DNA from: Clostridiales bacterium
GTDB lineage: Bacteria > Bacillota > Clostridia > Lachnospirales > Lachnospiraceae
Assembly: GCA_015655565.1 (NCBI GenBank)
Contig: JAATEU010000295.1
Span: 1-14,315 of the forward strand
DNA length: 14,315 bases
Reading direction: 5' to 3'
Shown here piece after piece: positions 1,821 to 5,453 of the stretch (within the stretch, counting starts at the first letter, position 1; each line of letters starts with the position of its first letter). Position numbers and translations under genes: made by a program. The notes under the pieces are model-generated. The model did not search any database, was not told the origin of the DNA, and worked only from the letters and a program-made list of their open reading frames with translations.

Positions 1821-2552
1821 ATGTTAAATATTGTGGTTTGTGATGATGATATAAGATTTACTGGAAAATTTGAAAGTATACTATATGAAATAGCGGAACA
1901 GAAAAATATAACTGTCGATATAGAAGTACTTTGGAATGGGGCAGAGTTGATTAATAATGTCTGCAATGAGAAAAAATGTTATGATTTAATCTTTCTGGAT
2001 ATAGAAATGAAAGGAATGGATGGTATTGAAGTAGCCAGAAAGATTAGGGAAATAGATGAAGTTGTGTTACTTATTTATGTTACAAACTATAAAAGTTATG
2101 CTATAGAGGCATACGAGGTCCAGCCTTTTCAATTTATTGTGAAGCCTGTAAATATTGATATTTTATATAAGTATTTTAAAAAAGCTTACGAAAAGATTAT
2201 TTCAGGTGCATTTTACTTTGAATATAAATATGGAAAGTTTTATTGTAAAATATTGGTGAAAGAGATCATGTATTTTGAAAGTAAGAAACGAGTTATCTAC
2301 ATATATATTTTTGATAAAATGGTACAGAAGTTTTATGATAAACTAAATAATGTTGAAGAACGGTTAAAAAATGAAAAGGTGGATTTCTGGAGGATACATC
2401 AGTCATACTTGGTAAATACAAGATATATCCGTAGAAAGTCTTATGATGAGATAGAGTTAGTAAATGGTAAAGTTTTATATATTAGTGAAGACAGAAGAAA
2501 AGAAGTCAGTGAACTTTATTGTGATTATATTGGGGGAGAAATAGTTGAATGA
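1821..2552 (+). CDS. agrA: LytTR-family response regulator, AgrA-like
   Basis: Cytoplasmic two-component transcription factor of 243 residues. The receiver domain (about 1-120) shows the acidic pocket Asp8-Asp9-Asp10, the phospho-acceptor Asp60 in Leu-Ile-Phe-Leu-Asp-Ile-Glu-Met, Thr88 and Lys108. Residues about 132-235 form a LytTR DNA-binding domain, recognisable from the Glu-Ile-Met-Tyr-Phe-Glu-Ser and Phe-Trp-Arg-Ile-His-Gln-Ser-Tyr-Leu-Val-Asn segments. The AAAAGGA site ends 10 bases before ATG 1821. The kinase gene overlaps the 3' end by 8 bases, which indicates translational coupling. Its expected role, from the AgrA family, is to be phosphorylated by the neighbouring kinase in response to the cyclic peptide and to bind direct repeats; such repeats are seen upstream of agrD (3868-3902). 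Confidence 0.9.
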   Translation: MLNIVVCDDDIRFTGKFESILYEIAEQKNITVDIEVLWNGAELINNVCNEKKCYDLIFLDIEMKGMDGIEVARKIREIDEVVLLIYVTNYKSYAIEAYEVQPFQFIVKPVNIDILYKYFKKAYEKIISGAFYFEYKYGKFYCKILVKEIMYFESKKRVIYIYIFDKMVQKFYDKLNNVEERLKNEKVDFWRIHQSYLVNTRYIRRKSYDEIELVNGKVLYISEDRRKEVSELYCDYIGGEIVE

Positions 2553-3861
2553 AGAAAGCATAAATTTTTTTGTAAGTCTAATAATGCTCATGTTAATGTC
2601 TGGGTTGTCCCTTGTGATATTATATGAATATTTTAGGATGTTTTTAAAAAAGCATAAAAATACCGGCATAAATTGGACTATATGGATTATTTATTTTGCA
2701 TGGCAGATAATTGCAACTACGAAAAATATTGATTTGACAGTAGTTAATAGAATGTTACTAAGTGTTCTGTTTGTATTTTTGGTAGCATTTAATTTCAATG
2801 GTAGCGTTATACATAAATTTATTTTTACTGCAATTTACAATTCTATATGGATGCTTATGGAATTTCTCATAGGATATGTATTTATTAGTTTGGGAATGGA
2901 TTACCTTTCATGGGAATTATTGGGCTCTTTATTATCTAAGATAATGCTGTTATTAGTTGTAAAGTTGTTACAACGTTTTTTCGATAATTATAATATTCAG
3001 AATTTACCTAATTATTACGAAATTTTATTAATGTTGATTCCTGTGGGGAGTATGTTTGTGGTTTATAATTCATTTATGATGAGTAGTCAATCTTATGAGA
3101 GCCGGAACATATTATGTTCATTTGTGTCACTAATTATTATGTTAATTATAAATTTTTTAATATTTTACATATATTTAAAATTATCCGAAGATTTGGAATT
3201 AAGGAATAAAAATGAAGTATATAAGCAAGAAATTGAACTGTATAGCAGATATATTGATGAAAAAGAAAATACAATGCTTAGATTTCGTAAAGCTCGTCAT
3301 GATTTAAAAAATCAACTAATTTATCTGCTAGGGTTGTTGGAAATTAAAGAATATGATGAATTAAACACATATTTGTCAAAATTAATTGAACGAGAACCAT
3401 TTGATAGGCTTACCATAGCTAACTCTAACAATTCGGTTGTAGATGCTATTGTAAATTATAAATATGGGATAGCAAGACGTAGTGGTATTGAGTTTCAAGT
3501 TAAGTTGAATGTACCCATGAAATTGAATGTTGACAATACCGATCTGTGCTTAATTCTTGGCAATGCCTTGGATAATGCAATAGAGGCTAATATAAAATTA
3601 AATAGTAAAAAGCCATATATTAAACTTCTTATGAAATTGGATAAAAATAATTTGATAATAATAGTTGAGAATTCTTTTGATGGAATTATTAAAACAAATG
3701 ACCATGGCAAAATATTATCTATTAAAGAAGACATTGTGAATCATGGTATTGGTATAAACACAATACAAAAGACTGTTAATAAATACCATGGATTTTTAAA
3801 AATTAATATAGAGAATAAAGATAAAATATTTGTTTTAAAAATAGTATTATATCTAAATTAG
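2545..3861 (+). CDS. agrC: Membrane sensor histidine kinase, AgrC-like (GHKL family)
   Basis: Predicted peptide receptor of 438 residues. The N-terminal half (about 8-212) is six to seven hydrophobic segments with short loops, as in AgrC receptors. A coiled-coil-like linker (about 213-245) leads to the phosphorylation motif Arg-His-Asp-Leu-Lys-Asn-Gln with His252. The GHKL ATPase part shows the N box Gly-Asn-Ala-Leu-Asp-Asn-Ala-Ile-Glu-Ala (339-348) and the glycine-rich Asn-His-Gly-Ile-Gly-Ile-Asn (399-405). This is the HATPase_c_5 type typical of peptide-sensing kinases. The start is TTG 2545, with GGGGGAG (2532-2538) 6 bases upstream; no ATG fits. It overlaps the response regulator gene by 8 bases. 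All catalytic motifs are intact, so it should be functional. Signal identity is inferred from the agrD gene just downstream. Confidence 0.9.
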   Translation: MNEESINFFVSLIMLMLMSGLSLVILYEYFRMFLKKHKNTGINWTIWIIYFAWQIIATTKNIDLTVVNRMLLSVLFVFLVAFNFNGSVIHKFIFTAIYNSIWMLMEFLIGYVFISLGMDYLSWELLGSLLSKIMLLLVVKLLQRFFDNYNIQNLPNYYEILLMLIPVGSMFVVYNSFMMSSQSYESRNILCSFVSLIIMLIINFLIFYIYLKLSEDLELRNKNEVYKQEIELYSRYIDEKENTMLRFRKARHDLKNQLIYLLGLLEIKEYDELNTYLSKLIEREPFDRLTIANSNNSVVDAIVNYKYGIARRSGIEFQVKLNVPMKLNVDNTDLCLILGNALDNAIEANIKLNSKKPYIKLLMKLDKNNLIIIVENSFDGIIKTNDHGKILSIKEDIVNHGIGINTIQKTVNKYHGFLKINIENKDKIFVLKIVLYLN

Positions 3862-3902: not shown

Positions 3903-4005
3903 TAGGAGGCGATAAAGGATATTTGAATTGTAAAATTTCTTCATATAGGTAAAAGTTACATGAATTCTCGAAAAAATTACAAGATAAAATATTTTTATAT
4001 TTTCA

Positions 4006-4023
4006 TGATAAAATCTTTTATCA
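4006..4023. promoter_or_regulatory. Perfect palindrome overlapping the agrD leader
   Basis: TGATAAAA-TC-TTTTATCA is an 18-bp perfect inverted repeat ending directly against the ribosome-binding site AAAGGAGG (4024-4031) of agrD. With a 2-base centre it suits a dimeric repressor operator better than an RNA hairpin. The XRE-type regulator of the same operon is an obvious candidate binder, but that is a guess. Its AT-only arms make chance occurrence more likely in this composition. Confidence 0.35.
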
Positions 4024-4043
4024 AAAGGAGGTAGATTATTATT

Positions 4044-4202
4044 ATGAAGAATTTTAAAGACTTTATATCACAAAAATTGAGGACTCCAAACACCCTAGCT
4101 TCTATAGCATTGGTATTTGCTGTTATAGGGGCAAATACTAAATGCTGTTGTATATTTCATCAGCCTAAAAAACCAAATATGAAAAAGCTGAGGAAATTCT
4201 AG
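4044..4202 (+). CDS. agrD: Cyclic autoinducer peptide precursor, AgrD-like
   Basis: Predicted precursor of 52 residues. Layout matches AgrD: an N-terminal amphipathic/hydrophobic helix (about 1-30) for membrane docking, a core Asn-Thr-Lys-Cys34-Cys35-Cys36-Ile37-Phe38, and the charged tail His-Gln-Pro-Lys-Lys-Pro-Asn-Met-Lys-Lys-Leu that is characteristic of clostridial AgrD peptides. The family route is that AgrB cuts at the end of the core and closes a thiolactone from a Cys side chain to the new C-terminal carboxyl. A five-residue ring, the usual size, would use Cys34 and Phe38 and leave two free cysteines inside the ring. AAAGGAGG (4024-4031) lies well placed before ATG 4044. The stop TAG shares its G with the GTG start of agrB. 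Precursor identity is secure from sequence plus neighbours; the exact mature peptide is not. Confidence 0.9.
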   Translation: MKNFKDFISQKLRTPNTLASIALVFAVIGANTKCCCIFHQPKKPNMKKLRKF

Positions 4203-4777
4203 TGGATAGACTTGCAGATAAGTTAACATGCTATATTATTTCACAAAATATTATTAGTAAAGATGATTATGATGTGTATAAATATGGTATGCAGACCGGT
4301 CTTGAGATGATTTTGTGTATGGCTATATGTTCAATTGTGACCATATATATGAAATCATTTTTTGAATTTCTTATGGTTATATCTATATTCTTTTCAATGA
4401 GAGCTTTCGTAGGAGGAATTCACTTAAAACATTTTATTACATGTTTAACGTGTTCTTTCATAGTAATAAACTCAATATTAATTCTTCCTAAGTTTTATAT
4501 ACCTTATAAGTCCGATTCATTAATTTTTACTTGGATATGTTTATTATCAATTATTTTATTAACTCCAGAAGCAATAAAAAATAGCGTGAAAGATCAAGAG
4601 GAATGGATTTATTTAGATAAACAGAGAAAAAGAATTCTAATAGGTATAGCGATATTAGGTCTGGTATTATGGATGTTTAACCTAACGAAATTATTATCAT
4701 TAATATTTTATACCACAATGGCAGTATGTATTTCAATGGTTTTAGAAATTATAAAAAATAGGTGTTTAAATAATTAA
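4202..4777 (+). CDS. agrB: Accessory gene regulator B, AgrD-processing endopeptidase
   Basis: Integral membrane cysteine protease of 191 residues that trims the AgrD tail and helps form the thiolactone. Several membrane segments are visible (about 33-50, 54-68, 80-96, 105-120, 143-182). The family core Arg67-Ala-Phe-Val-Gly-Gly-Ile-His74-Leu-Lys-His-Phe-Ile-Thr-Cys81 is present; His and Cys seven residues apart match the catalytic pair of staphylococcal AgrB. Cys84 is a nearby extra cysteine. The start is GTG 4202, with GAGGA (4190-4194) 7 bases ahead, overlapping the agrD stop by one base, so the two are translationally coupled. Length is normal for the family (about 190-210). No disruption is seen. 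The next sequence, 3 bases after the stop, is a decayed recombinase. Confidence 0.95.
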   Translation: MDRLADKLTCYIISQNIISKDDYDVYKYGMQTGLEMILCMAICSIVTIYMKSFFEFLMVISIFFSMRAFVGGIHLKHFITCLTCSFIVINSILILPKFYIPYKSDSLIFTWICLLSIILLTPEAIKNSVKDQEEWIYLDKQRKRILIGIAILGLVLWMFNLTKLLSLIFYTTMAVCISMVLEIIKNRCLNN

Positions 4778-4779
4778 GG

Positions 4780-5165
4780 GTGATATTGAGGAATAATACC
4801 GAAATAGTATGGTTGCTTGATGATATAATTTCCAAAGATGCATATGATGAAAAATACAGAGATTTTACTGATAAAATCAACAAGTACAAAGAAGAGTACG
4901 AATTTCTTATAATGAATATGGATGAACAAAAGAACATCGCAAAGCGTATGAAAGAGTTAAGAAAAAAATTTCAGATATCGATGTACTTGATACGTTTGAT
5001 AGAGTTGTATTTGAAAGCATCGTCGAAAAAGTAATTGTTGGTGAAGTTAATGAACAAGGAATAATTGATCCTTATAAGTTGACCTTTGTGTTAAAAGGTA
5101 ACGGATGCAAGGTACTTAGTGATGCAAAGGACAGATATTCAAATTCGTGTAGAAAAGTAAATTAA
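4780..5165 (+). pseudogene. C-terminal remnant of a large serine recombinase, frameshifted
   Basis: The first frame (4780-5034) encodes a coiled-coil stretch of the type found near the end of large serine recombinases: Ile-Ser-Lys-Asp-Ala-Tyr-Asp-Glu-Lys-Tyr-Arg-Asp-Phe followed by repeated Lys/Glu. The second frame, from 4971, continues the family pattern with Asp-Val-Leu-Asp-Thr-Phe-Asp-Arg-Val-Val-Phe-Glu-Ser-Ile-Val-Glu-Lys-Val-Ile-Val-Gly and then Asp-Pro-Tyr-Lys-Leu-Thr-Phe, ending at TAA 5163-5165. The switch lies at or near an A7 run (4962-4968). The catalytic resolvase domain, zinc ribbon and all upstream parts are missing, so this is about the last 125 residues of a protein normally over 500. 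It marks an old mobile-element boundary. The GTG at 4780 is not a real gene start. Confidence 0.75.
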
Positions 5166-5210: not shown

Positions 5211-5453
5211 ATGAGCGTACAAAATGACCTGTTGAATAATAAAGAAGAATTTTTGAATGAAATTGATAATGAAGTAAAGGATAATAACCAAATGTGTTCT
5301 TTTTGGCAGGACGAGCTAGAGGATATATGTTCTTCTTGGCAAAACGACTCATGTGGAGGTGATAATAATGATGACACCCAAAAAACACAATTTAGCATAA
5401 GAAAATCCAAAGGCATCAAGATGAAAAATCTTAATGCCTTTGTTTTCATATAA
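5211..5453 (+). CDS. Small acidic Cys/Trp-repeat peptide, candidate modified-peptide precursor
   Basis: Unrecognised 80-codon ORF. Residues 1-28 are acidic and helix-prone with no cysteine, like a leader. Then a unit recurs with an 11-residue period: Cys29-Ser-Phe-Trp32-Gln-Asp34 and Cys40-Ser-Ser-Trp43-Gln-Asn45, followed by Ser-Cys48-Gly-Gly. The DNA of the two units (20 bases from 5295 and from 5328) matches at 17 of 20 positions, so it is a true duplication. This leader-plus-repeated-core layout is typical of ribosomal peptide precursors; Trp-x-Asp/Asn triplets are the kind cross-linked by radical SAM cyclophane enzymes. No such enzyme is in the window. AAAGGA lies 10 bases before ATG 5211. 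The last 25 codons run through a terminator hairpin, so the present 3' end may be an accident of truncation. It could also be a meaningless ORF. Confidence 0.4.
   Translation: MSVQNDLLNNKEEFLNEIDNEVKDNNQMCSFWQDELEDICSSWQNDSCGGDNNDDTQKTQFSIRKSKGIKMKNLNAFVFI
5355..5400 (+). other. Near-consensus ribosome-binding site leading to a 10-codon stub
   Basis: GGAGGTGAT at 5355-5363 is an almost perfect anti-16S match, 4 bases (8 from GGAGG) ahead of ATG 5368, with a second ATG at 5371. The frame reads Met-Met-Thr-Pro-Lys-Lys-His-Asn-Leu-Ala and stops at 5398-5400, just ahead of a terminator. The site lies inside the 3' part of the small Cys/Trp ORF, the arrangement used to couple a precursor to the next gene. 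Either a downstream gene has been lost, or this is a genuine tiny ORF or leader. Confidence 0.4.
5408..5446 (+). terminator. Rho-independent terminator after the small Cys/Trp ORF
   Basis: CAAAGGCAT (5408-5416) pairs with 5434-5442; after one C/A mismatch, AAGAT (5418-5422) pairs with 5428-5432 around a GAAAA loop. A TTTT run follows at 5443-5446. The hairpin lies inside the reading frame of the 5211 ORF. Confidence 0.75.

Follow-up and report, generated by a model that had tools for sequence, protein, structure and literature searches.

Three adjacent cysteines in the predicted ring of a clostridial Agr pheromone

A short gene from a Clostridiales bacterium encodes a peptide that resembles the precursor of an Agr pheromone and carries three cysteines in a row where its ring would be. 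Which of the three closes the ring, and what might the other two be doing there? We approached these questions by comparing the peptide and its neighbors in a 14,315-nucleotide stretch of DNA (hereafter the window) with related systems. The reading that we favor, with a probability of about two in three, is that the locus specifies an ordinary pentameric thiolactone signal in which positions 35 and 36 would adjust specificity for the receptor, their thiols being incidental.

The agrD gene and its ring cysteine

The 52-residue AgrD translates as MKNFKDFISQKLRTPNTLASIALVFAVIGANTKCCCIFHQPKKPNMKKLRKF, and in it Cys34, Cys35, Cys36, Ile37 and Phe38 stand directly before His39-Gln-Pro-Lys-Lys-Pro (HQPKKP); the cysteine codons are TGC TGT TGT (4143–4151). 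The original prediction had described an Agr pheromone precursor with Cys-Cys-Cys-Ile-Phe before HQPKKP, a description borne out by the translation and by a score of 37.4 bits against the NCBIfam AgrD model TIGR04223 (cut-off 19). The length, amphipathic leader, HQPxxP motif and charged tail are all typical, and the gene adjoins agrB. The gene order of the cluster is agrA-agrC-agrD-agrB (Table 1), and the GTG start of agrB shares one base with the agrD stop codon. In AgrB, both His74 and Cys81 are intact and are separated by six residues (His-x6-Cys), as in the active site of this family; by analogy with S. aureus AgrB they would be the catalytic residues. Among solved structures, none was a credible match for AgrB, and those for AgrC covered kinase parts only. 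Judged by these sequences, the window holds a complete AgrA-AgrC-AgrD-AgrB quorum-sensing system.

Table 1. Features of the agr locus, in window coordinates.
Feature	Position	Strand	Basis
agrA-like LytTR response regulator	1821..2552	+	PF00072 and PF04397; Asp60 intact
agrC-like sensor histidine kinase (GHKL)	2545..3861	+	PF14501, 78.6 bits; His252 in RHDLK intact
Two direct repeats before agrD, 21 bp apart	3951..3984 (3951–3963, 3972–3984)	+	conservation in three loci
Possible −10 element TAAAAT	4009..4014	+	aligned with TATAAT in both orthologues
agrD ribosome-binding site AAAGGAGG	4024..4031	+	conserved in alignment
agrD, autoinducing-peptide precursor, 52 aa	4044..4202, stop codon included	+	translation, TIGR04223, homologues
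Predicted five-residue ring Cys34-Cys35-Cys36-Ile37-Phe38	4143..4157	+	alignment of Cys34 with the ring cysteine of other AgrDs
agrB, membrane peptidase	4202..4777	+	PF04647, 92.9 bits (cut-off 23)

A profile search for AgrD, with queries rich in CC cores, returned 312 hits, of which the best 120 were read. Ring position 1 is a cysteine in all 120 of these, and Cys34 aligns there. According to an excerpt of PMC11297923, the thiolactone cysteine commonly lies at i−4 from the C-terminus. Because of this alignment and this common placement, Cys34 is the expected ring residue and very probably closes a five-residue ring as usual, in agreement with its earlier designation as the standard thiolactone cysteine; we infer that AgrB cuts after Phe38 and closes the ring on Cys34. 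Six-residue rings have been predicted in some clostridia (PMC10301443, excerpt). The window AgrD shares its ring-cysteine place, five residues before the predicted cut, with the clostridial type described by TIGR04223, which has a five-residue core before [HY]QP, and differs from it in the extra cysteines at ring positions 2 and 3.

Occurrence and variation of the extra cysteines

Three adjacent ring cysteines had been flagged as unusual, and the comparisons agree: they occur in 7 of the best 120 of the 312 hits, a set enriched for CC, and in none of 70 AgrDs sampled across the class. The class sample comprised 118 genomes, 39 of which, the window's own included, had AgrD matches. All 70 AgrD places outside the window's own genome were read (one, L231, gave no core by the search expression and was judged by eye); none has CC at ring positions 1 and 2, none has CCC, and in five the eight residues that precede the cut include two cysteines. 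A second ring cysteine is seen class-wide in L219 (CLLCV), at position 4, and in L193 (CICLI), at position 3.

A pattern search for CCC cores, which covered only those with Gln after His/Tyr and an HQP[KEDN]xP tail, found 51 places in 47 of 397 family genomes, roughly the frequency of a chance pattern. At none of the 50 places besides the window did the stretch examined contain an AgrD-like frame accompanied by an AgrB, leaving the window's as the sole CCC-pattern AgrD among these genomes. The same pattern found 24 places in genome_contigs, two of them real AgrDs (L135 and L139), and four in viral_contigs, none an AgrD. The sole AgrD match in viral_contigs, L146, reads CCCIFHQEKNPSM inside a longer frame and was not taken as an AgrD; it is more probably a zinc finger of a CHC2-type primase. 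A weak match in a genus genome, L076, was likewise set aside, its CCC lying in a frame without AgrD features, and P0001 had no match in plasmids. Among the Agr-peptide papers listed in literature searches, no title or abstract opening mentions an AgrD ring with two or three cysteines.

In the window's own genome, which is 63% complete (3.18 Mb in 632 contigs), AgrD is matched seven times, six of these above the family cut-off, and AgrB likewise seven times, with one copy broken by stops. The other cores are CLFLG, CVFLG, CTMIL, CMGLF, SRWFF and a Cys-less one on contig C73, so that the window AgrD alone has more than one ring cysteine. Serine in place of the ring cysteine marks a second AgrD type of the genus (L007 490–597, on own contig C73; L104; L112–L113; L242–L244), an example being ASQYGI-HQAVEP beside an AgrB.

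The original prediction had called for a search for other clostridial Cys-Cys-Cys cores, and such cores came to light. The nearest protein among the matches listed, P0002, from a separate Anaerocolumna-labelled metagenome-assembled genome, is 81% identical and has the same CCCIF core. L135 and L139 encode AgrDs of the form SKCCCFY-HQPEKP (core CCCFY), each beside an AgrB, and their genomes (loci L161 and L162) show the window's agrA-agrC-agrD-agrB order, with AgrC orthologues 47% identical to the window kinase and AgrBs 46 and 45% identical to the window AgrB. Between these two agrD genes dN is 0.088 and dS 0.727, and agrD is therefore under purifying selection. A single substitution separates the 52-residue AgrD of L135 from P0007; it lies at ring position 4 (Phe/Ile), as expected if that is a specificity position. 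Common to related AgrDs, two of them in the same gene order, the CCC core is inherited and no product of chance.

Within the best 120 of the 312 AgrDs, 95 carry one ring cysteine, nine have cysteines at positions 1 and 2, nine at 1 and 3, and seven at 1, 2 and 3; several genus loci gave no core by the search expression and are left out of the counts. The extra cysteines (25 of 120) occupy positions 2 and 3 only, 16 of 120 each, with none at positions 4 and 5 and 24 among 3561 leader residues. Ring positions 2 and 3 are strongly enriched in cysteine, which arose there repeatedly, and the thiol may be put to use. Counting methionine (41) together with cysteine (16), 57 of the 120 have a sulfur-containing residue at ring position 2. 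In a tree with ring positions 2–5 masked, which rests on 43 columns and has weak support, a branch (support 86, not starred) separates the twelve CC rows from the rest, with at least five changes for the position-2 cysteine and at least ten for the position-3 cysteine.

In the twelve nearest AgrDs of these best 120, position 35 is always Cys, a constancy that may be overstated since the CC-bearing queries enriched this set for CC. Position 36 is Cys in seven, Trp in three and Tyr in two, residues whose codons (TGY, TGG, TAY) are one base apart; positions 37 and 38 are Ile/Phe/Leu and Phe/Tyr, and the spacing from the core to HQP is constant. A Cys35-Cys36 pair is thus found in 7 of the 12 only and is lost in sister systems. 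When the 397 family genomes were searched with the window AgrB, sister cores were found beside AgrBs: CVCIY (L249, L250), CAYIF (L252, L263), CAYIY (L253) and CCLFF (L251). A further locus, L247 (MT836234.1, human-faecal, labelled Bacteriophage sp., a label that is unverified), has a kinase, an AgrD with core CCYIF and an AgrB; it is a bacterial contig under the wrong label or else an agr system carried by a phage. Cores with and without the extra cysteines therefore adjoin AgrBs of this one kind (CCCIF, CCCFY at two loci, CCYIF, CCLFF, CVCIY, CAYIF, CAYIY), which indicates that these cysteines come and go.

Possible roles of the ring thiols

Sister systems can have Ala or Val at position 35 and Tyr or Leu at position 36. 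That systems this close do without the cysteines is, on the sequences compared, the strongest reason to doubt that the thiols are indispensable, and variation at 35 and 36 likewise speaks against the idea that all three cysteines share a dedicated role. If the signal is an ordinary one, AgrB would cut AgrD after Phe38 and close the Cys34-Phe38 thiolactone of five residues, and the exported peptide, keeping an N-terminal tail, would be sensed by AgrC. AgrC would then activate AgrA, which would bind the direct repeats before agrD and set up positive feedback. Positions 35 and 36 would be ordinary hydrophobic sites of the ring through which the cognate AgrC recognizes it, with position 37 also giving specificity; Cys35 and Cys36 would most likely remain free, reduced thiols in an anaerobe, with Cys35 stable in the closest lineage and Cys36 one among several allowed bulky or hydrophobic states. 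The constancy of position 35 counts against this specificity reading, as it exceeds that of an ordinary specificity position; so does the enrichment of cysteine at ring positions 2 and 3. Docking of the ring thiols to a receptor thiol is not favored, since the sensor parts of three AgrC orthologues have no cysteine common to all.

The AgrB of the window has its own additional thiol, Cys84, which forms Cys81-x-x-Cys84 with the catalytic residue (His74, Cys81 and Cys84 span 4421–4453). A cysteine three residues after the catalytic one occurs in 4 of 56 distinct AgrBs, namely in all four beside near-lineage CC AgrDs and in none of the 52 others, a distribution that would suit a partnership in which this pair cooperates with the additional thiol of AgrD, perhaps by supplying a resolving or acyl-relay cysteine. 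However, a follow-up search found CxxC AgrBs also beside single-Cys AgrDs with cores CAYIF and CAYIY, which contradicts a strict coupling, and two CC-type AgrDs (L067, L150) have AgrBs without CxxC. The seven CxxC rows of the AgrB tree lie on one side of a branch (83/81; the CxxC of the L251 AgrB, which is outside this tree, was read by eye), and since they form one branch we regard CxxC as a lineage trait and not a strict partner; a thiol partnership is highly improbable.

Could the extra thiols nonetheless have chemistry of their own? The original prediction had raised smaller rings, thiol exchange, oxidation and metal binding, none of which gained support from the present comparisons. Its view that redox sensitivity or ring isomerisation would be a novelty in such a signal is too strong in view of two papers. 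S. aureus AIP-1 and AIP-4 are inactivated by oxidation of a ring methionine (PMC12312760, excerpt). Like the predicted product of the window AgrD, they are thiolactones with an oxidizable ring sulfur, which is Met there and Cys here. Listeria monocytogenes and Ruminiclostridium cellulolyticum have pentameric thiolactone precursors like the window AgrD, and there ring rearrangement is already known: tail-less pentameric AIPs rearrange within minutes by an S-to-N shift at the N-terminal ring cysteine, Listeria P2 having a half-life of 1.3 min at pH 7, and the R. cellulolyticum AIP reportedly undergoes a comparable shift (PMC11297923, excerpt).

The rearranging AIPs lend some weight to ring exchange, in which Cys35 or Cys36 would attack the Cys34 thioester to give smaller rings, or an N-terminal Cys34 would lead to an amide-closed cyclopeptide; free thiols next to the thioester should make such exchange chemically possible. 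Yet ring position 1 is invariably Cys in the 120 and HQP spacing is fixed in the nearest 12, so that it is the ring of five residues that has been conserved, and smaller rings would be more strained. Residue 33, before Cys34, is Lys in nine and Ala in three of the nearest 12 within the best 120, which does not settle where the N-terminal cut falls. We consider ring exchange unlikely. Redox gating would demand that the Cys35 thiol (with Cys36 where present) be reduced, oxygen turning the signal off through a Cys35-Cys36 or intermolecular disulfide. It could draw on the constant Cys35 of the nearest branch, a thiol adjacent to the ring sulfur, the frequency of sulfur at ring position 2, and the oxidizable ring residue of S. 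aureus AIP-1 and AIP-4 (PMC12312760, excerpt). But position 36 is Trp or Tyr in 5 of the 12 near relatives, so a Cys35-Cys36 disulfide cannot be a conserved feature, and position 35 itself is Ala or Val in sister systems; nothing among the scanned window genes pointed to a thiol-oxidation pathway. Redox gating is accordingly rated as decidedly unlikely.

Metal binding has a physical precedent in human PP1 Inhibitor-3, whose SKCCCIY is identical to residues 32–38 of P0007 and whose CCC motif binds Zn2+ with a KD of about 3 uM (PMC10066265, excerpt). The CCC stretch might by analogy bind Zn, Cu or Fe in the precursor, the linearized peptide or the ring, and the window AgrD does give a weak match to the Inhibitor-3 family PF07491. 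That match scores 18 bits against a gathering cut-off of 27, and homology was rejected; as the likeness spans seven residues only and falls below the cut-off, it represents convergence with an unrelated eukaryotic linear peptide, not kinship. Moreover, Cys34 would be acylated in the mature thiolactone, leaving two thiols, and position 36 is not Cys in 5 of the nearest 12, so that we hold metal binding to be very unlikely. A broader proposal joins the thiol-rich ring, with Cys35 constant and Cys36 variable, to the CxxC AgrB: a thiol next to the thiolactone would make the signal switchable between forms that may be oxidized, metal-bound or ring-exchanged and may differ in activity, and anaerobes would read redox state and cell density in one molecule. 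We give this proposal little credence, comparable to that of redox gating.

The ordinary thiolactone signal, with specificity tuned at positions 35 and 36, is thus our preferred reading. On this reading the Agr pheromone ring would tolerate, and in some lineages keep, one or two free thiols beside its thioester. With seven AgrD systems in one incomplete genome, several signals have to be kept distinct, and the distinction seems to be made at ring positions 2 and 3. Should the thiols prove reactive in their own right, the signal would link the sensing of cell density to redox or metals.

Control region and flanking genes

The direct repeats have the form AAAGTTACATGA, and both their 21-bp period and their sequence are kept upstream of agrD in three loci (the window, L135 and L139). 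None of 300 first-order Markov windows contained such a pair, a comparison in which the pattern itself was taken from the observed sites. All three upstream regions show the repeats, then a −10-like element, then an AGGAGG site; the window's TAAAAT was absent from the list of a plain consensus scan. The repeats are likely AgrA (LytTR) binding sites, which fits autoinduction.

At the other end of the gene, we considered whether the C-terminal KLRKF of AgrD is kept solely as codons for the agrB ribosome site. This idea was dropped because contig C3 of the same genome has agrB before agrD, yet its AgrD ends in NKLRKF.

Beyond agrB, at 4780–5162, two out-of-phase frames resemble the remnant of a longer gene; they gave no Pfam match above cut-off and may be the tail of a mobile-element recombinase. 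Farther downstream, at 5211–5453, lies a frame for a small acidic protein with repeated CSFWQDE/CSSWQND units. It matched no Pfam family and has one relative, 55% identical over 50 residues with an internal stop, in 1 of 14 other genus genomes; its product is perhaps a regulated secreted peptide.
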